The position numbers and the translations under genes are program-made. 22,925 nucleotides of DNA from a virus, in the IMG/VR virus record IMGVR_UViG_3300005056_000128, positions 1 to 22,925 of that record; one strand, 5' to 3'. Positions 8,248-19,080 of the stretch are shown here, piece after piece. Under the pieces are notes generated by a model. The model did not search any database, was not told where the DNA came from, and saw only the letters and a program-made list of their open reading frames with translations. How positions within the stretch are numbered: position 1 is the stretch's first letter; every line of letters begins with the position of its first letter.

Positions 8248-8532
8248 CTAATAATCGTCTCTAGCAACAAGCACATCATTAGGGCAAATATCATAACTTT
8301 TGCCCTCGCAATCAATAATCGCATGACTGTATTCATCGATCGCACTGCTACGCTTAATTGCTGCATACTCACTTCTATGCGTCGTATATCCCTTGCCTCC
8401 ATAATATGACGCTAATACAACCGCGTAAATCGACCCCTCAGGGAAATCTATATCACGGTCATAACAGTCACTAGCGATATCGTAGATGCTGCCGTCATTG
8501 CTCATTTTTTGAGGGATTGTGTATGTATCCAT
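8248..8532 (-). CDS. Unknown acidic small protein, first gene of the AcrVA2-like operon
   Basis: 94 aa from ATG 8532. An in-frame GTG at 8544 is part of the ribosome binding site (AAAAGGTGATAAAAATCATG), so the ATG is preferred. The protein is acidic and tyrosine-rich (SIYDIASDCYDRDIDFPEGSI, YGGKGYTTHRSEYAAIKRS) with no signal peptide or membrane segment. I recognise no family. It sits 7 bp upstream of the AcrVA2-like gene behind its own promoter. Small, acidic and next to an acr: by guilt by association it is a candidate anti-defence protein, which is inference only. Confidence 0.6.
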   Translation of the reverse strand: MDTYTIPQKMSNDGSIYDIASDCYDRDIDFPEGSIYAVVLASYYGGKGYTTHRSEYAAIKRSSAIDEYSHAIIDCEGKSYDICPNDVLVARDDY

Positions 8533-8662
8533 GATTTTTATCACCTTTTGCGATTTTAGCCCCCGTGTTCCGAGGCGCGAAACAGATTAGTTATTTAATC
8601 TATGGTTGTATAATACTATAATTATTTTAGTATTTCAAGGGTTAATTTAAACTATTTTAGGT
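8533..8662 (-). promoter_or_regulatory. Promoter and 5' UTR, copy 1 of a duplicated control region
   Basis: On the minus strand: -35 TTGAAA (plus positions 8633-8638), 17-bp spacer, -10 TATTAT (8610-8615). Operator-like ATTATTTTAGT lies in the spacer (8621-8631) and ACTATTTTAGG exactly 30 bp upstream (8651-8661). The transcript would begin near a hairpin AGATTA-6-TAATCT, followed by a GC-rich hairpin (GCCTC/GGGGC) and AAAAGGTG. The 71 bp 8534-8604 match 10028-10098 with one difference, so the UTR is better conserved than the promoter. Confidence 0.75.
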
Positions 8663-8833
8663 TTGTTGGCCTCTTAGAGCTACTGCGCCCGCAACAACAA
8701 CAGCAAAAAGCTTGGGCTTGTTTTTGTGCCAATTTATTAATGTCTGCTCGCTTGTAGCAGTTGCGTTAACAAGTTCGGCCAGGCTTTTAAGCCCTGCTTT
8801 TTTGCATTGTTTAGATGGTGTTATTTTACTCAT
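8657..8833 (-). CDS. Small helix-turn-helix protein, Aca-like candidate regulator
   Basis: 58 aa. The start is the ATG at 8833, which overlaps the TGA of the upstream gene (ATGA); an in-frame ATG at 8857 lies inside that gene. The protein reads as a compact HTH domain: KQCKKAGLKSLAELVNATA, then SEQTLINWHKNKPKLFAVVV with the recognition-helix part TLINWHKN. Small phage proteins of this type (…TLNNWHKNKPELF…) are common but poorly characterised. Its stop lies directly before the promoter that drives the AcrVA2-like operon, and both copies of that promoter carry paired palindromes. That is the arrangement of Aca autorepressors in anti-CRISPR loci. The regulatory role is inferred. Confidence 0.7.
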   Translation of the reverse strand: MSKITPSKQCKKAGLKSLAELVNATATSEQTLINWHKNKPKLFAVVVAGAVALRGQQT

Positions 8834-9414: not shown

Positions 9415-10026
9415 CTAGTCCCAGACAGCCGAGGCTGGTAGCCAGTTGTCTAATACAGCTTCAGCGACCGCTAAATCACAGCCCTCAACAAGCATTTTCT
9501 TGGCTTTGTCACCGGCCGCTGACTTAAGATGATGCCCCGCATCGGTGTAAGCATCTGCTTTGATGTATAACGCTGCCACTGGGTATTGACGTGATAAAGC
9601 GTCAACATCTGAGCTAGGGTATGCTGGCATATCAACGCCATCGTTATGCTCGTCCTCCATTGCCTTATTAAACAGGTACTGGTAGTTAACCAGGTCACTA
9701 ATGGCTTTTTGTAAAATACGTAGACCAGGGACGGCGGCATCTAGCGCGGCATTTTCAGCGATTATCTCGCGCACCCGGTAATCCTTTGCAGCAGCATTAA
9801 ATATATCGGCTTGATCTCTCGCCAACGCTATTATATTGGCTCCCAGGCTGATGTAGTATGTCCCGCTGCTGGGCCATTCCGGATGTTCCGCGTGCAATTT
9901 GTGCGCGATGAAGGCACGTTCCGCGCTAAACTTTTCTGTGACGCCGCTGGGCAGTTTGACCATTTTTGTGGAAAAGTTAAACGTAAGCTCTGCGCCGAGG
10001 GCTGTTGTGATTTTTACTGTGGACAT
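9415..10026 (-). CDS. Unknown phage protein, first gene of promoter-copy-2 operon
   Basis: 203 aa from ATG 10026; the in-frame GTG at 10038 belongs to the ribosome binding site AAAAGGTG, as in copy 1. The N-terminal ~75 residues look like a small alpha/beta module (KITTALGAELTFNFSTKMVKLPSG). The C-terminus (YIKADAYTDAGHHLKSAAGDKAKKML ... GCDLAVAEAVLDNW) resembles a short helical motif (AY.KA..Y..A...K..AG.KA....G) that I associate with phage and plasmid small proteins of unknown function. Cytoplasmic, acidic. Function unknown; candidate anti-defence or takeover protein by context. Confidence 0.6.
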   Translation of the reverse strand: MSTVKITTALGAELTFNFSTKMVKLPSGVTEKFSAERAFIAHKLHAEHPEWPSSGTYYISLGANIIALARDQADIFNAAAKDYRVREIIAENAALDAAVPGLRILQKAISDLVNYQYLFNKAMEDEHNDGVDMPAYPSSDVDALSRQYPVAALYIKADAYTDAGHHLKSAAGDKAKKMLVEGCDLAVAEAVLDNWLPASAVWD

Positions 10027-10155
10027 TATTTTTATCACCTTTTGCGATTTTAGCCCCCGTATTCCGAGGCGCGAAACAGATTAGTTATTTAATCTATGCG
10101 CCTATACTACTATAACTATTTTAGTATGTCAAGGATTAATTGAAACTATTTTAGT
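10027..10155 (-). promoter_or_regulatory. Promoter and 5' UTR, copy 2 of the duplicated control region
   Basis: Minus strand: consensus -35 TTGACA (plus 10127-10132), 17-bp spacer, -10 TAGTAT (10104-10109). The palindrome ACTAAAATAGT occurs in the spacer (10115-10125) and again 30 bp upstream (10145-10155). The hairpin-bearing leader and ribosome binding site are nearly identical to copy 1. This promoter is closer to consensus than copy 1. Weaker similarity to the DNA upstream of copy 1 continues to about 10178. Confidence 0.75.
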
Positions 10156-10480
10156 ATTATGTCTCTCTTAGCGCTACTTGTATCTCACCCCACCACCTCG
10201 TCAATATCTATACTTACTACATCTAGCTTAGATAAAATGCTTGCTGTTTTATAGGTGATATTTTTCCCTTTATCAGGATATAAGCTATTGATTGTATTAT
10301 GTTGGTAACTTGCTTTTCCTGATATGTTTCCACGCGTAAAATTAAGGCTAAGTCTATGAAAAATAAAGAAAAAATATGTGTTTTATTTGTTTGCATGGGA
10401 AGCATTTAACGAAAGTTACAAGTCTTTGATATATAAAAGATTAAAAATCTTTTCCTCTATTTTCCTTCTGTTTTCCTTTA
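10156..10480. other. AT-rich intergenic region beside int, candidate attP
   Basis: About 325 bases without a convincing gene, directly 3' of int, where lambda-type phages often keep attP. It holds a perfect inverted repeat AAAAGATT-aaa-AATCTTTT at 10435-10453. Next to it are three TTTTCCT repeats at 10450, 10460 and 10471, spaced about one helical turn, which could be Int arm-type sites. No core identity segment can be named without the host attB. A 60-codon frame (10223-10405) shows no recognisable features and overlaps the start-less frame listed separately. Confidence 0.4.
10185..10382 (-). pseudogene. Start-less reading frame resembling a helix-turn-helix fragment
   Basis: A 65-codon frame open from a stop at 10383 to TGA at 10185 with no ATG, GTG or TTG. 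The product includes GKASYQHNTINSLYPDKG then NITYKTASILSKLD, which looks like real protein of DNA-binding (HTH) flavour, not a random frame. Options: a decayed regulator, or a 3' gene end carried at attP to restore a host gene on integration. Low confidence; no homologue recognised. Confidence 0.3.
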
Positions 10481-11665
10481 TTAATCTGATATTTTTAGCC
10501 ATTCTGCCGCCCGCGCATCGTGATAAATAGCTGTTGTTTTATTGTGTTTGTGGCCAAGTAAATTAGTTGTATTAACGCCTTGTGCTTTATATAGTCTTTC
10601 GCTCAGCGAGCGGAGCTCGTGATAAGTCGGCGGCGTTTTTCCCGGCCATATTATCCCCGATGCGTCTCTAGCATGTTTAAATGATTTGCTGATAGTGTTT
10701 GCGTGTACCGGGTCGCCCCTACGCGCGCCCTGCATGTTTTTATCGTGATGTATGAGGTAGCGACTCACAGTTCGGTTTCGGCACATATTGATAACATCCC
10801 TAACCGACATGTTTATTGCTTCCATTTTTAAGGAGAGAGGTATCTCAACTAATGAGCCACTTTTTTGCTGCACTACTCGCAGCACGTCGCCATCGACGTG
10901 AGCGTAGGGATGGGTAGGCCACTTGTCACTTTTTTGCCACGCCAGCCATGCGTCATCCCAGTCTTTGCCTTTTTTGAATTGCATAATAGCGATATCGTCT
11001 AGGCGTTGGCCGGTCACTAAGCCCAACATCCATGCGTTATATCCGTATTCGTTTTTCTTGTGTTTTTTTATCTCGGCAAAATCATCAAGTATTAAGCGCG
11101 CACGCTTCACTTTAACTTTGGGTGCGCGGGTTGCGCTTGCTGGGTCGGCATAGCCGGCTGGCAATATGCCTTGATGTGTCGCCTCCTTGTATAGGTCTAT
11201 CAAAGCCGACCGCATTGATTGCGCCATCCGATTTTTATTTTGACTTGTATATTTTGCAAAAATAGCGACCACATCTAAAACCGTAAGCTGATCTAGTTTT
11301 TTGGTTGGCCCGACATGACTCGTAACAGCTAATATCGCGCTCTTTCGTGTCCGTAGTGTGTTCGGTTTTAAGCCGCGATCCGCACACGCTTGTAAGTATA
11401 TTTCCGCAAATTCGGGTAGCGTTACTTTGCATATACTGCGTCCGTCGGCAATGTTTTTAACGATATCGTCAGCTTGTTTAGTTAGGATAGTGTTTAGCTG
11501 CTTAGCTCTTTTGATTGCCGTCTTTAAGTCATTTTTTGCTTTTAGTGATTTTTCACTGCCGTCCCTGGGGTCTATCCAACTGTAGTATGTGGCGTCACTT
11601 TTGGTATGTGCTCGCAATCCATCGGGCCAGCCTGAGCGATTAGCTGAGCGGCGTCTTGGCGACAT
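10481..11665 (-). CDS. int: Lambda-type tyrosine integrase
   Basis: 394 aa. N-terminal arm-binding-type domain (MSPRRRSANRSGWPDGLR ... TYYSWIDPRDGSEKSL), core-binding domain (~80-180) and catalytic domain. The full catalytic set is visible: R221 (TGQRLDD), K268 (QQKSGSLVEIPL), H349 and R352 (YHELRSLSERLY), H372 (LLGHKHNKTTAIYHD) and nucleophile Y381. HELRSLSxRLY and LLGHK are close to lambda Int. It integrates and excises the phage at att sites with IHF and Xis. It is the last gene of the leftward operon and its ATG overlaps the xis stop by one base (TAATG), so the two are coupled. Confidence 0.95.
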   Translation of the reverse strand: MSPRRRSANRSGWPDGLRAHTKSDATYYSWIDPRDGSEKSLKAKNDLKTAIKRAKQLNTILTKQADDIVKNIADGRSICKVTLPEFAEIYLQACADRGLKPNTLRTRKSAILAVTSHVGPTKKLDQLTVLDVVAIFAKYTSQNKNRMAQSMRSALIDLYKEATHQGILPAGYADPASATRAPKVKVKRARLILDDFAEIKKHKKNEYGYNAWMLGLVTGQRLDDIAIMQFKKGKDWDDAWLAWQKSDKWPTHPYAHVDGDVLRVVQQKSGSLVEIPLSLKMEAINMSVRDVINMCRNRTVSRYLIHHDKNMQGARRGDPVHANTISKSFKHARDASGIIWPGKTPPTYHELRSLSERLYKAQGVNTTNLLGHKHNKTTAIYHDARAAEWLKISD

Positions 11666-11886
11666 TAGTTTAGTATCCCTGCCACTACTGGGTCTATATT
11701 GTCTGCAAGTTTTGTTTTATCTGGTGCAACGTATTCCGCGTTTTCTTTTACCATCCAGCATCCACCAACTTTTCTGGGTTTAGGTTTTATTACCTCTCCT
11801 CTGGCCCATCCGTACAGCGTATTTTTGGCAAACTGTTTTGACCATTTAGACCTTGCCCACGCCTCAATCGGTATTTCTTTAATCAT
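11665..11886 (-). CDS. xis: Excisionase-like winged-helix protein
   Basis: 73 aa beginning MIKEIPIEAWARSKWSK, with FAKNTLYGWARGEVIKPKPRKVGGCWMV, the wing-helix pattern (…LyrWaR.G.I.P.P.KvG..w.V…) of the small excisionase-like family. It is basic and immediately upstream of, and overlapping, int by one base. Role: bends attachment-site DNA and steers Int towards excision. It is only 2 bp downstream of the DUF3310 gene. Family assignment from pattern and position. Confidence 0.8.
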   Translation of the reverse strand: MIKEIPIEAWARSKWSKQFAKNTLYGWARGEVIKPKPRKVGGCWMVKENAEYVAPDKTKLADNIDPVVAGILN

Positions 11887-11888
11887 GG

Positions 11889-12119
11889 TTATTTCCTTTT
11901 GTTAGTAACATCCGCAGCGCTCCCGCGTTTCACCAGCTCTCTTTCGATGTACCATTTCGCTTTTTTTAGGTCTTCTTCTGCGTGATTTTTCAAGTCTGCG
12001 CGCCAGATGTATTTCATCGCGTTGCCGAGGTTAAACCCCATGTGCTCGGTGATATCAATACACTCAACGCCGCTCGGGTGGCTGGTGTAGTGAGGTGGGT
12101 GGTCGACTGGGTTAGTCAT
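11889..12119 (-). CDS. DUF3310 family phage protein
   Basis: 76 aa: MTNPVDHPPHYTSHPSGVECIDI, then ITEHMGFNLGNAMKYIWR and a Lys-rich helix (HAEEDLKKAKWYIERELVKR). This is the standard DUF3310 signature (HY..H..G.ECIDi.E...F..GNA.KYi.R), widespread in phages and sometimes described as a nucleotide-kinase-like protein, though no P-loop is present here. Function not established. The first 50 bp are exactly repeated at 12769-12818. Its ATG at 12119 lies 64 bp from the end of the ASCH pseudogene and has only a weak ribosome binding site. Confidence 0.85.
   Translation of the reverse strand: MTNPVDHPPHYTSHPSGVECIDITEHMGFNLGNAMKYIWRADLKNHAEEDLKKAKWYIERELVKRGSAADVTNKRK
12059..12108. repeat. 50-bp direct repeat, copy 1 (5' end of the DUF3310 gene)
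   Basis: Identical to 12769-12818 over 50 bp. This copy encodes VDHPPHYTSHPSGVECI of the intact gene. The identity stops abruptly at both sides, which suggests a recent duplication or recombination event. Confidence 0.9.
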
Positions 12120-12697: not shown

Positions 12698-12866
12698 ATA
12701 ACAATCGCATCAACTTGGACGGCGCAAACTGCGCGCCTCCGGTTATGCTTGTCGTTATAACTGCTCATTACACTCAACGCCGCTCGGGTGGCTGGTGTAG
12801 TGAGGTGGGTGGTCGACTTGACAGCCGGGCGGCGAATGTAGCGCGTGACCACGATCTGTGATTTTG
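12698..12866. other. Intergenic segment with hairpin and repeat copy 2
   Basis: Gap of 169 bases in an otherwise tight operon. It has a GC hairpin (GGCGC ... GCGCC, about 12722-12740, no U-tract) and the second 50-bp DUF3310 repeat. No start-competent gene was found on either strand. Confidence 0.5.
12769..12818. repeat. 50-bp direct repeat, copy 2 (orphan DUF3310 5' fragment)
   Basis: Exact copy of 12059-12108, outside any gene. On the minus strand it still reads VDHPPHYTSHPSGVEC, then NEQL and a stop. The ATG is missing and the frame is blocked upstream by a TAG, so it is a relic, not a gene. Confidence 0.9.
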
Positions 12867-13691
12867 TTATTTTGCTACATGCAAAAACAACCGTGGCTTT
12901 GTTCCGTTTTTCATTGTCTCTAATATGTCGTTAAAGGCGAGCTCATGCACTTTATGTGGTCGCACAAGGTCGTACCACATCAAAATCTTTCCGTCTGCAA
13001 TACGGTAACGGAATTTTGCTGTGATCGAATCGGCAACGTCACTGCCTTCAAACACTTTTATGCCAAGGGTTAATTCTTCTGGTATTTCTAGCGTGCCATT
13101 GGCGCCCGCAGTGTCGTTTAAATTTTCGTTATAGGCGAACTGGGTTTGTCCGTTTGCTATCCGCCGCCCAGATTTGAATGTGATGTCTTTATTGGATTGC
13201 AGGGTCAGGACAGTTTCGAGCATTTGCGCTGCAGATGGTTCGCGTATTTCTTCTAGATTTTTTTCTGTGAAAAGGGCGAACTCCATTTGATCCATTCTTT
13301 CGCCATCTTTGCTGATCCATTCGTCCCATTCGCGCGTTGTCTCGCATTTGTAAGCCAGGCAATGCTCTTTCCATGAGGGCGTATTAGAGTCTACGTGAAA
13401 ATCAATGATAGCTAGAAATGATGCATCGGCGATACAGTAGTTTATTACGCTGTACTCGGTCTTGAAGGCATCAAAATATTCGATGAAGCTTTGTGCGTCT
13501 GCAAAGTTGCTACAGCCGTTTATGTGTTTCGGGCGCTCACGTAAAAAATCGAGCTCTTTAACGTTAACGCCGCGCGGTACAAATGCAAAGGCAGTGCCTT
13601 TTTCATTCCGCACTTCTATTTTACATAGCTGCTTTCCGGCTTCGATGGCGGTCGCAGTTTCGCCGGGTGTATTTTCAAATTGTGATGTCAT
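12867..13691 (-). CDS. DUF2303 (YfdQ-like) phage protein
   Basis: 274 aa from ATG 13691 with a clear AGGAG nine bases upstream. Features match the DUF2303 family, which includes YfdQ of an E. coli cryptic prophage. These are an N-terminal FAFVPRGVNVKELDFLRERP, then DAQSFIEYFDAF, an ASFLAIIDFHVDS ... PSWKEHCLAYKCETTREW core, and a C-terminal KFRYRIADGKILMWYDLVRP. Members are found in early operons of temperate phages; the molecular function is not established. The partner gene 26 bp upstream is the kind that usually accompanies it. Confidence 0.85.
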   Translation of the reverse strand: MTSQFENTPGETATAIEAGKQLCKIEVRNEKGTAFAFVPRGVNVKELDFLRERPKHINGCSNFADAQSFIEYFDAFKTEYSVINYCIADASFLAIIDFHVDSNTPSWKEHCLAYKCETTREWDEWISKDGERMDQMEFALFTEKNLEEIREPSAAQMLETVLTLQSNKDITFKSGRRIANGQTQFAYNENLNDTAGANGTLEIPEELTLGIKVFEGSDVADSITAKFRYRIADGKILMWYDLVRPHKVHELAFNDILETMKNGTKPRLFLHVAK

Positions 13692-13717
13692 TGTGCTGTT
13701 CTCCTGTTTTCGTTTGG

Positions 13718-14086
13718 TTAGCTGCCGGCCCTCATGGCTGGTGAAGCGCTAGCCTCAACGCCTCGCAAGGGCAGCTCGCTTTGGTTGGGATCATTGCGCT
13801 GCAGATTGCCATCGGGCGTGCCAAACATAATAGTGCAGCCTTTATCTTCTTCTGGCAGTTTGTCGATAATCTTTGGCGTAATTTGATATGCGCCATTGCG
13901 TAGCGGTTTAATGATTAACGTCAATCCGACCTCTGCTTTTTTGTTCGTCTTGCGCATTGCTTCGACGGCCTCGGCAAGTAGATCGCTCATTTCGAGCTGT
14001 ATGCTGCCGCCAGAAAGGCTCGCGACTGTGCGGTTCCATAAATCGGGTTTTGCATTTGGGCTGAATATTTGCTCTTCCTGGCTCAT
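13718..14086 (-). CDS. Conserved-type early phage protein, partner of DUF2303
   Basis: 122 aa from ATG 14086, four bases after the stop of the DnaQ-like gene, with GGGAG upstream. It has a helical centre (EMSDLLAEAVEAMRKTNKKAEV), a beta stretch (GLTLIIKPLRNGAYQITPKI) and a Pro/acidic stretch containing GTPDGNLQRNDPNQSELPL. I recognise this type of small protein next to DUF2303 genes in phage early regions, but no function is known to me. Likely cytoplasmic. Confidence 0.6.
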   Translation of the reverse strand: MSQEEQIFSPNAKPDLWNRTVASLSGGSIQLEMSDLLAEAVEAMRKTNKKAEVGLTLIIKPLRNGAYQITPKIIDKLPEEDKGCTIMFGTPDGNLQRNDPNQSELPLRGVEASASPAMRAGS

Positions 14087-14090
14087 AGCT

Positions 14091-14600
14091 TTAGCTCCCT
14101 GTTAATACTTGGTAGATGTGCGTGGTTAGGTTGGCGCGTGCCATGGCGCTTTTGCCGCTGTATATGTTGTCTGGTATGCCGTAATGTTTGCGCATGTCGT
14201 TTAGTCCGCGGCGGTGGTCGGGGTGTTGCGTGCGTTGCATTCCTATAAGACATTTTGGGTAACAGTGATTTGACAATGGTTCGTAGCCCATTAATTTTAA
14301 TTCTTGGTCGACAAACGATTCGACGAACGGCATGTTGTGCGCAATGACTTCGGCTTGCTCGCAAAATCCGAGCACTTGGTCAGCGATATTTAAAAATAAT
14401 GGTTGGCCTACGAGTTTTTCGTTAGTGAGTCCGTTTTCTTCTGCCGCGCCGGGCTCTAGTTTTTGTAACGGGTCTAGCGTTTGGGCTATGGTGTTGCCGG
14501 TGCGCATATGGTTTACCAGTTCTATCATCGCAATGGCACATACTCGGTTTATTAATGGGTCTAAGCCGGTGGTGTGTATTTGTAAGACGACCTGTCTCAT
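14091..14600 (-). CDS. DnaQ/DEDDh exonuclease-fold protein with replaced active site
   Basis: 169 aa. The ATG at 14600 overlaps the upstream TGA (ATGA); a longer frame to 14717 is only the shadow of that gene. Fold landmarks of the Pol III epsilon/DnaQ family are all present in order: MRQVVLQIHTTGLDP, GAAEENGLTNEKLVGQP, AEVIAHNMPFVESFVDQEL, RRGLNDMRKHYGI, SAMARANLTTHIY. The five DEDDh catalytic residues are not. Asp and Glu of the LDTETTG motif are Q7 and H9, Asp of HNxxFD is V93, and His and Asp of the HxALxDA motif are K150 and R155. Metal-dependent 3'-5' exonuclease activity is therefore not expected. It may act as a nucleic-acid- or protein-binding decoy. The frame is intact and the gene lies in a tightly coupled operon. 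Confidence 0.8.
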   Translation of the reverse strand: MRQVVLQIHTTGLDPLINRVCAIAMIELVNHMRTGNTIAQTLDPLQKLEPGAAEENGLTNEKLVGQPLFLNIADQVLGFCEQAEVIAHNMPFVESFVDQELKLMGYEPLSNHCYPKCLIGMQRTQHPDHRRGLNDMRKHYGIPDNIYSGKSAMARANLTTHIYQVLTGS

Positions 14601-14881
14601 GCTTGGGTGCCTTCGGTGGTGTGCTGGTTTATTTTTTTGTCGAGCCATTTGACGCCTTTTTCGGTGATGAATGTTTTTGCGTATAAATGCGACATGCCTG
14701 CGACTGGGTTTTGCCAATTTTTTAATGTAGTGCGAAAGTACTCGGCGTCGATATAGCGCTGTTGCGGTAGATTTTTGCTGTCGAATATGCCGTCGTTGCG
14801 TAGCATGGCGAATAAGCGCTTTGAGCCGACTCCCAATAGCTTGGCTGCTTCGCGTACGGTGTAGGTTTGTGACATGGTCAT
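14597..14881 (-). CDS. KilAC / antirepressor C-terminal-domain-like protein
   Basis: 94 aa; ATG 14881 overlaps the DUF2786 stop (ATGA), and its own stop overlaps the next gene the same way. It opens with a winged-helix-like YTVREAAKLLGVGSKRLFAMLRNDGI, then PQQRYIDAEYFRTT and a C-terminal AKTFITEKGVKWLDKKI. This is the pattern of the KilAC domain usually found at the C-terminus of phage antirepressors, here free-standing without an N-terminal Ant/BRO part. Because the repressor in this phage lacks a self-cleavage domain, a role in derepression is conceivable. DNA-binding role inferred. Confidence 0.7.
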   Translation of the reverse strand: MTMSQTYTVREAAKLLGVGSKRLFAMLRNDGIFDSKNLPQQRYIDAEYFRTTLKNWQNPVAGMSHLYAKTFITEKGVKWLDKKINQHTTEGTQA

Positions 14882-15582
14882 GGGGCTAGGAGGCGGCCTG
14901 CTGTTTGCTGGCTTTCAACGCCTGGGCGAATGCTTATGCCTTTGCCGTCTTGATATCCCATTCGCACGGCCGAAAGATCTATGTTGTCGCGTGCCTTTGC
15001 AGTTACATAGTCTGGCTGACCAAATATTTCGCCTCTTAATTTTAGTTTTTTATTTACTAAAATCATTGCTTTGTCGTTAGCGTTTGTTTCCTCTTTATCT
15101 ACCTTCTTGAGCGCCCTTAAGTTTTCGCCAACAGCACCTACAGCGGCTATGTAATAGCTGTTTTTTGATCGCAATCTGCTTAGCTTTCTTTCTGTGCAAA
15201 GTCGCTTAATTGTATTAACAAAATAAAAGAATAAGTAGCCCGCCATTTTTACGTCAGATATCTCGCCTAAAAAAGCATTGTAGCGCTGGTTATTTTTATA
15301 GCTAAATCGAGTTATCGTGTCCGTGTATCGAGCAATATCAACAGTGAGAAATTCCACCCACTTTGTTGAGCGCCTAAATGGCGCGCCAACTGTCTCGCTC
15401 GTAAAGGAGTCACGGTCCAGCCCTTTTGTCAAAAGCTCAGCGTTGTCAATTTCGTACCGCTGCATTAAATGCTTTGCTTGCCGCGCGGCTATTGCTGCTT
15501 CGTGCGGGCTCGATACGTCATCAGCCATGGCTAATAATTTTTGCACTTTGTCTAGTACCTTTTTGCGTTCTGCGCTTAACAT
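14878..15582 (-). CDS. DUF2786 domain phage protein
   Basis: 234 aa from ATG 15582. The N-terminal ~45 residues (KKVLDKVQKLLAMADDVSS, then HEAAIAARQAKHLMQRYEI) are the DUF2786 signature. A longer C-terminal helical region follows, with FYFVNTIKRLCTERKLSRLR and a basic segment, of the kind usually attached to DUF2786 in phage proteins. Function unknown; it often occurs in early regions. Eight bases separate it from the membrane protein upstream, and it is translationally coupled to the KilAC-like gene. Confidence 0.8.
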   Translation of the reverse strand: MLSAERKKVLDKVQKLLAMADDVSSPHEAAIAARQAKHLMQRYEIDNAELLTKGLDRDSFTSETVGAPFRRSTKWVEFLTVDIARYTDTITRFSYKNNQRYNAFLGEISDVKMAGYLFFYFVNTIKRLCTERKLSRLRSKNSYYIAAVGAVGENLRALKKVDKEETNANDKAMILVNKKLKLRGEIFGQPDYVTAKARDNIDLSAVRMGYQDGKGISIRPGVESQQTAGRLLAP

Positions 15583-17868: not shown

Positions 17869-18303
17869 TTATGTGAGGTGGTTATTGGCGAACGTAAAGT
17901 GCAGCTCTCCGCCAAGCGCTTTGAGCGCAGCTTCCATGCGCCGCACTTTGGTTTCGTGATGCGGGTCGAGAATACGGCGTGCTTCTTTTTCGTCCACATC
18001 CAGGCGTCTGGCCAGCTCAGATTTGCTGACATGCTGTTGGTTTGCCAACTGGTAGATAGCCGCTTTGAACGCTGTTTGAGCAGGCAGGCTGATACACCGC
18101 TCGCCTTTTTTAGGTTTGCTGTGAGTTGGGATGGGCAGACCATCGTCAATATAAGCAGCAATGGCTTCTTCAAGGGCGTCTGCGGCGTTGATCAGGGCTT
18201 GATCAAGGTTGTCGCCCTGGGTGATGGCTTGCGGCACGTCACGGAAGGTGACGGTATAACCATCGTTCTCTTTGGCAAATTTTGCCGGGTAGATGTAGTT
18301 CAT
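17869..18303 (-). CDS. hicB: HicB-family antitoxin
   Basis: 144 aa. Partial RNase-H-like HicB domain at the N-terminus (YPAKFAKENDGYTVTFRDVP, QAITQGDNLDQALINAADAL, then EEAIAAYIDDGLPIP). A C-terminal HTH follows (QLANQQHVSKSELARRLDVD) of the longer HicB type. It neutralises HicA by direct binding and represses the operon. It starts 24 bp downstream of hicA. The TA pair is inserted antisense within the + strand early region; a 274-aa + frame over it is only its shadow. Confidence 0.9.
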   Translation of the reverse strand: MNYIYPAKFAKENDGYTVTFRDVPQAITQGDNLDQALINAADALEEAIAAYIDDGLPIPTHSKPKKGERCISLPAQTAFKAAIYQLANQQHVSKSELARRLDVDEKEARRILDPHHETKVRRMEAALKALGGELHFTFANNHLT

Positions 18304-18327
18304 GTGTTCACTCCAGTTTCGGTTCGG

Positions 18328-18522
18328 TTAATCGATGTTCAGTTGTTTTCTGATCGCTGCAAGGGTTCCTCTTTTCAGTTCGCCATTAGGCACGGTGGCA
18401 AATTTATCGCCGTAATAAATTGTTATGTGGCTGCCTTTTCCACGTTTTTTGTCAATCCGAAAATCAACGCCATTCGTCTTGGCTGTTTTGCGTGCTTCCT
18501 TGATGAACTGTTCGCGATTCAT
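18328..18522 (-). CDS. hicA: HicA-family mRNA interferase toxin
   Basis: 64 aa with the dsRBD-like HicA layout: NREQFIKEARKTAKTNGVDF, then KRGKGSHITIYYGDKFATVP with the catalytic-type His in G-S-H, and ELKRGTLAAIRKQLNI. HicA cleaves mRNA on or near the ribosome when HicB is lost. In a prophage the pair may stabilise the element or act in abortive infection. Confidence 0.9.
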   Translation of the reverse strand: MNREQFIKEARKTAKTNGVDFRIDKKRGKGSHITIYYGDKFATVPNGELKRGTLAAIRKQLNID

Positions 18523-18911: not shown

Positions 18912-19080
18912 CCAGAAAAGAAAAAACAACGCGCTAGAGAGGATGTTGTGGATAACCTGTTTATAAGCTGTGGATAACTCAGATAGAGGGGTTACTAAAA
19001 CAGTAACGAAGGGTTACTAAAACAGTAACGAAGGGTTACTAAAACAGTAACGAAGGGTTACTAAAACAGTAACCACAAAA
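18895..19080. other. Phage replication origin: iterons and two DnaA boxes
   Basis: Five iterons GTTACTAAAACAGTAAC, each an inverted repeat (GTTACT/AGTAAC). One lies over the O stop codon (18896-18912); four are in tandem at an exact 22-bp period (18991, 19013, 19035, 19057). Two perfect DnaA boxes (TGTGGATAA, 18947-18955 and 18969-18977), also 22 bp apart, sit between. A purine/A-rich stretch to ~19120 is a likely unwinding element. Confidence 0.9.

Follow-up and report, generated by a model that had tools for sequence, protein, structure and literature searches.

The temperate phage analysed here encodes, on its minus strand, a 169-residue protein with the exonuclease domain of the DNA polymerase III epsilon subunit (DnaQ) in which all five DEDDh catalytic residues are replaced. 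Judged from its sequence, this protein (pseudo-DnaQ) is almost certainly catalytically dead, that is, devoid of Mg-dependent exonuclease activity. The best explanation we can offer, at about even chances, is that it is a pseudo-exonuclease of the early operon, retained in a non-catalytic role and possibly binding nucleic-acid 3′ ends. The window, meaning the whole stretch of DNA analysed, comes from IMG/VR and is 22,925 bases long; its features are collected in Table 1. The reading frame opens with an ATG at 14600, has its final codon at 14094-14096 and its stop at 14091-14093 (coding 14600..14094, minus strand); the plus strand of 14091-14600 holds no gene and many stops. An earlier note on this DNA had placed the gene correctly, and its strand is here corrected to minus.

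Table 1. Genes and sites in the window, with the five codons of pseudo-DnaQ that occupy catalytic positions.
Feature	Position	Strand	Remark
Approximate attachment site	10373..10393	.	IMGVR_UViG_3300005043_000077 changes from phage to host DNA (kdsB, lpxK)
Tyrosine integrase	10481-11665	-	end of leftward operon (10481..12119 block)
Excisionase	11665-11886	-	near end of leftward operon
DUF3310 gene	11889-12119	-	near end of leftward operon
DUF2303 protein (YfdQ domain family)	12867..13691	-	47% identical counterpart in IMGVR_UViG_3300021045_000179
phrog_204 protein	13718..14086	-	immediately downstream of pseudo-DnaQ
pseudo-DnaQ (epsilon exonuclease domain, 169 aa)	14091..14600 (incl. stop)	-	five DEDDh residues all replaced
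Codon 155, CGC Arg	14136..14138	-	catalytic D167, motif III
Codon 150, AAA Lys	14151..14153	-	general-base H162, motif III
Codon 93, GTC Val	14322..14324	-	catalytic D103, motif II; preceding H88, N89, F92 retained
Codon 9, CAC His	14574..14576	-	catalytic E14, motif I
Codon 7, CAA Gln	14580..14582	-	catalytic D12, motif I
KilAC/ANT-type phage DNA-binding protein, 94 aa	14597..14881	-	upstream of pseudo-DnaQ
DUF2786/DUF7168 protein (phrog_421)	14878..15582	-	heads the gene run; overlaps KilAC gene

Family searches place pseudo-DnaQ among DnaQ-type exonucleases along nearly its whole length. It matches Pfam RNase_T (PF00929) over most of the domain (E=2.2e-12, 48.2 bits vs. a gathering score of 24) and PHROG_192, “DNA polymerase exonuclease subunit” (3e-12), and a phmmer search of the PDB aligned its residues 2-168 with E. 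coli epsilon (2.4e-15). A profile built without it scored it at 129 bits, within the range of distant active phage DnaQs (122-136), and it falls below the curated epsilon cut-offs of NCBIfam NF004316 and TIGR01406 (103 bits vs. 196 and 99.7 vs. 222.7, respectively). Structure prediction with AlphaFold2 bore out the DnaQ fold proposed earlier, giving a pLDDT of 93.7 with a 33-sequence alignment and a TM score of 0.95 to E. coli epsilon (2gui) and to 2ido; this confidence leaned on the alignment of active relatives, and single-sequence folding (pLDDT 40) was uninformative. The closest known system is the exonuclease domain of proteobacterial Pol III epsilon, with end-to-end homology, TTGL and HN..F in common and a best identity of 38%, from which pseudo-DnaQ differs in its five replaced residues and in having neither the alpha-binding tail nor the clamp motif. 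A zinc site formed by C113, C117 and histidines was considered and found no further support, only C117 being invariant across the short phage group.

Alignment with E. coli epsilon pairs the catalytic set with its replacements as D12>Q7, E14>H9, D103>V93, H162>K150, and D167>R155, in stretches that are free of gaps around every motif. The same columns were recovered in alignments to 32 gammaproteobacterial DnaQ proteins and in profile alignments to viral homologues, and the substitutions named in the earlier note were confirmed, together with the TTGLDP, AHNMPF, GIPD, and ANLTTHIY segments, every one of which is present. The codon replacements amount to at least nine base changes within 15 bases. 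On the flanks of the lost metal ligands, T10-T11-G12-L13 and H88-N89..F92 are retained. The gain of basic residues also holds: by residue count, the charge of the active site shifts from about -4 to +2, in a protein that is as a whole not basic (pI 6.2; relatives, 4.6-6.1).

In DEDDh enzymes, a pair of metal ions, held in place by the acids, engages the scissile phosphate. In pseudo-DnaQ, the four metal-binding acids are all lost, as is the general base, and with Lys and Arg at two of these positions, the site would repel metal. That the protein is still a nuclease, its metal ligands or chemistry having moved elsewhere within the fold, is extremely unlikely on these grounds; H88 and several other His and Cys residues do remain, and nothing direct points to such a rearrangement.

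The replaced codons are not a product of sequencing. The DNA of the gene is without a single mismatch in the window, IMGVR_UViG_3300005043_000077, and IMGVR_UViG_3300029803_000009, so that one haplotype is known, and the matched DNA among the three contigs (9-12 kb) is wholly identical; since three contigs agree, a sequencing error or assembly artefact is ruled out.

Two of these contigs also define the phage. IMGVR_UViG_3300029803_000009 ends in 21 bases of Illumina adapter, and without them it self-closes by 11 bp into a circle of 34,700 bp that contains the window exactly. IMGVR_UViG_3300005043_000077 departs from the phage at about window position 10383, adjoining the integrase, and continues into host DNA with kdsB and lpxK (named from their translations, kdsB also by its relatives). 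Its KdsB is 78% identical to that in a gammaproteobacterial MAG. From the integrated contig and these host genes, it follows that the window phage is temperate and that its host is an uncultured gammaproteobacterium; a DNA search with the phage region in five genomes of the host’s order gave no match. Among the phage genes are a GpA-type terminase and O and P replication genes of the lambda type; a polymerase gene was not seen. Between O and P lie two exact, almost tandem 41-bp copies (window 18989-19073), possibly origin repeats. At 17869-18522, two adjoining small minus-strand ORFs resemble, from their translations, a HicA-HicB toxin-antitoxin pair.

The loss is concentrated on the catalytic residues where the family is deeply conserved. 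A set of 55 diverse, non-redundant active relatives, which indicates what fold and site require, has 20 columns with a conservation of at least 90%. At these columns, pseudo-DnaQ keeps 13 of the 15 non-catalytic residues and has lost every one of the five catalytic residues (hypergeometric p=0.0014), with the same contrast at looser thresholds (p=0.009 and 0.011). Active relatives that keep fewer of the non-catalytic columns still have 5/5 catalytic residues. Against 33 gammaproteobacterial DnaQ proteins, all of which keep the catalytic residues that they cover, the contrast is only suggestive (24/53 other invariant positions kept vs. 0/5 catalytic, Fisher p=0.07). The claim in the earlier note that the family pattern is otherwise well preserved therefore stands at the most conserved columns and fails at the gammaproteobacterial-invariant ones, and its statement that the loss is confined to chemistry was too strong, with 29/53 such positions changed and a very long branch.

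These changes bear on whether the gene is simply decaying, its exonuclease no longer needed and its open frame that of a recent relic still unbroken. The long branch, the many otherwise invariant positions changed, the single haplotype, and the orphan status of a protein whose close relatives were not found all speak for such a relic. Against it, the 507-bp frame, the start, and the ATGA overlap with the preceding gene are intact despite at least nine base changes in the catalytic codons, and 13 of the 15 deeply conserved non-catalytic residues survive. If neutral, nine or more changes would correspond to some 0.3-0.6 substitutions per site, or more, accumulated after activity was lost. In simulations of neutral decay to that level, with indels not counted, the 169-codon frame remained open in about 0.3-1% of runs, and at 0.4-0.6 substitutions per site, it was stop-free in 0.3-0.55%. 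Codon usage is consistent with an intact gene and adds little to this case: of the simulations of decay at 0.3 substitutions per site, 18% score as high, so that such decay is barely excluded. The frame being open despite the catalytic changes, two accounts are left: constraint on the remainder of the gene once activity was gone, or selection for the changes themselves. Both imply function, a case that is an argument and not a measurement. The expectation that random decay would also hit the frame thus held up. The reverse is seen in Wolbachia phage WO, which carries a real DnaQ relic: the frameshifted remnant at 601-1093 of WOVitA1 has a broken frame and keeps its surviving catalytic residues, which makes it useful as a decay control. 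Overall, we consider decay unlikely and are fairly confident that pseudo-DnaQ has been retained under some constraint, not drifting freely. The proposal of a repurposed pseudo-exonuclease is partly sustained, by the kept fold, the complete loss of the catalytic set, and the improbability of free decay, and is weakened by a loss that extends beyond chemistry.

Searches for relatives returned active phage copies and no second fully dead one. Searches with the single protein in the viral and genome collections gave identical copies or no match. Across IMG/VR, the genome and phage collections, plasmids, and 369 genomes from the class of the host, no homologue turned up with an identity above 38% and below 100%; the IMG/VR and genome-collection scans used short peptide patterns, which moderate-identity relatives could escape. 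Viral scans with neighbouring genes, whole alignments, and non-catalytic fragments yielded the related active phage copies and no second copy that is fully dead; some of the scan patterns included catalytic positions and were biased accordingly, and two other scans avoided such motifs. The viral homologues examined keep the catalytic residues within the part they cover, with a single exception. This protein, in IMGVR_UViG_3300003690_001261 (3-920), has Asn for the first Asp, Tyr for the motif III His, and a C-terminal DUF6378; on this sequence it may be another impaired phage DnaQ.

The alignment with nearest phage homologues proposed in the earlier note was carried out, and the acids are present there and absent from pseudo-DnaQ; of the two observations that, according to the earlier note, would jointly refute its reading, one, homologues with intact acids, is made here, and for the other, relaxed selection, the three known copies are identical and offer no variation. 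One such homologue is the short epsilon of IMGVR_UViG_3300021045_000179, 38% identical to pseudo-DnaQ and with all five catalytic residues, in a distantly related phage that also has phrog_204, DUF2303, KilAC-type, excisionase, and integrase genes (those other than DUF2303 and DnaQ identified from translations). Gene order differs between the two phages, and a ParB-like gene intervenes; the two DnaQ proteins have C113-x3-C117 and GQP/RR-LN segments in common. Among the best 80 DUF2303 loci, an epsilon-like DnaQ occurs in one besides that of the window phage, and three more have weak DnaQ-family matches.

Four short phage epsilons (IMGVR_UViG_3300021045_000179; IMGVR 2515075002_000001, 3300037424_003033, and 3300026534_000118) are free-standing and have no long tail, like pseudo-DnaQ, and unlike it, they keep D, E, D, H, and D. 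Phages nickie, ANB28, nACB2, and elmo have short epsilons of this kind too, with no long C-terminal tail. Pseudo-DnaQ itself terminates in ..VLTGS, whereas the host epsilon runs about 65 residues further, into the tail that serves clamp and alpha binding. The idea that this truncation signals decay was considered and rejected because active phage homologues likewise stop near the domain boundary; the active short epsilon in a related phage makes the missing tail a trait of the phage form. In Pseudomonas phage elmo (Pbunavirus), a short epsilon of the active type is encoded in overlap with the phage’s own Pol III alpha gene, which makes this locus well suited to studying the role of short phage epsilons.

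In trees, pseudo-DnaQ has a very long branch of about 4.5-9 changes per site, a length that relaxed selection would also produce. The smaller best tree places it beside the four short phage epsilons with a support of 39/80, a placement that the long branch makes unsure, and the alternative grouping with DnaQ of the host lineage is not rejected (p-AU 0.19). Capture from the present host’s dnaQ was hinted at by a two-residue loop deletion in common and was set aside, with an identity of only 33% and an indecisive tree.

The operon context hints at replication or recombination. The genes are tightly packed, and the stop of the KilAC gene overlaps the start of pseudo-DnaQ (ATGA), which suggests translational coupling. 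The phrog_204 and DUF2303 genes (window 12867-14086) are paired, as in other phages. The window also has two further repeats: a 54-nt repeat, 98% identical, has one copy inside the DUF3310 gene (12055-12108) and one upstream in a gap between listed genes (12765-12818), and a 170-nt direct repeat, 85% identical (8515-8684 and 10009-10178), spans the starts of two minus-strand genes together with the sequence upstream of them and is perhaps a duplicated promoter or operator.

This context bears on the main functional rival, in which the dead epsilon serves as a protein-protein adaptor, docking on a partner in replication or recombination (the host clamp, Pol III, a theta-like subunit, SSB, or a phage operon partner) and modulating host replication. 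The C-terminal segment of epsilon binds Pol III alpha, and a clamp motif follows the exonuclease domain; pseudo-DnaQ lacks both, which weighs against an adaptor. Its fold does match the epsilon-HOT complex structure, and the DUF2303 protein of the same operon belongs to the YfdQ family of E. coli prophage CPS-53, whose yfdQRT or yfdQRS genes inhibit the initiation of replication when in multicopy and whose YfdR protein binds DnaA (PMC4776307). The connection to YfdQ, however, is one of domain family only, and YfdR was not seen here. We rate the adaptor reading as improbable, though worth keeping in view as the chief competitor.

A counter-defence decoy, occupying or titrating host nucleases or a defence sensor, had also been suggested. 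Nothing direct speaks for it beyond the early-operon position near the lysogeny module; PADLOC gave only generic DEDDh and PDC-S48 models, as expected from shared exonuclease homology, no partner is known, and no precedent for a DnaQ decoy was found in the literature searched. The suggestion thus gained nothing from the analysis, and we hold a decoy to be highly improbable.

The reading we prefer is that of a retained, non-catalytic pseudo-exonuclease. A free-standing epsilon domain would have been captured long ago by temperate phages; in the window phage, the ligands of both metal ions and the general base have been lost, while the fold is kept and, with it, part of the frame of the substrate site (TTGL, HN..F). 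Lys and Arg at a DEDDh site cannot hold metal, and direct holding of phosphate is possible, so that the simplest mechanism would be non-cleaving binding of a 3′ end or backbone. The pocket, in which about four acids have given way to Lys and Arg, could hold the 3′ end or backbone of single-stranded DNA or RNA without metal or cleavage, and pseudo-DnaQ may act as an end-binding or end-shielding accessory in an early recombination, replication, or lysogeny-control operon. By analogy with known dead exonucleases, a nucleic-acid binder is a tentative assignment, somewhat short of an even chance. The more specific version, in which the swap of acids for Lys and Arg would make a metal-free 3′-end binder, a counterpart of Maelstrom that shields ends or steers host replication, is doubtful, if conceivable.

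Dead exonuclease domains have turned into RNA binders elsewhere, as in Exuperantia. The MAEL domain of metazoan Maelstrom has a DnaQ-type fold, derives from an active nuclease, has lost the DEDD residues, is inactive, and binds ssRNA strongly (PMC4408791). The loss of these residues with the fold kept is what it has in common with pseudo-DnaQ; Maelstrom is, by contrast, eukaryotic, has a structural Zn site (ECHC) and no specific sequence relationship to pseudo-DnaQ, and the RNA binding is a finding on Maelstrom. Exuperantia and other pseudonucleases, among them Ssd1 of the RNase II family, are likewise dead exonuclease domains reused as RNA binders (PMC5597691, PMC8097288); they are also eukaryotic and in other contexts, Ssd1 with a different fold. 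DnaQ-like domains that have naturally lost DEDD occur in PolA1, PolA2, and PolB2 polymerases, including bacterial Pol I (PMC12926913), where they sit inside the polymerase, whereas pseudo-DnaQ is free-standing. Dead DnaQ-like domains are already known, and in a literature search of partial coverage, no free-standing phage epsilon with all five residues replaced was found, which does not prove that none has been described.

Pseudo-DnaQ is one orphan in one phage, and its weight is limited accordingly. To our knowledge, pseudoenzymes are well documented in eukaryotes and rarely in phages. Phage-encoded DnaQ is common, with 514 records in one phage collection matching the copy of IMGVR_UViG_3300021045_000179, and such proteins are readily annotated as exonuclease or epsilon; pseudo-DnaQ warns against calling function from fold alone. 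Together with its active counterpart in a related phage, it forms a ready pair for testing the non-catalytic roles of such proteins.
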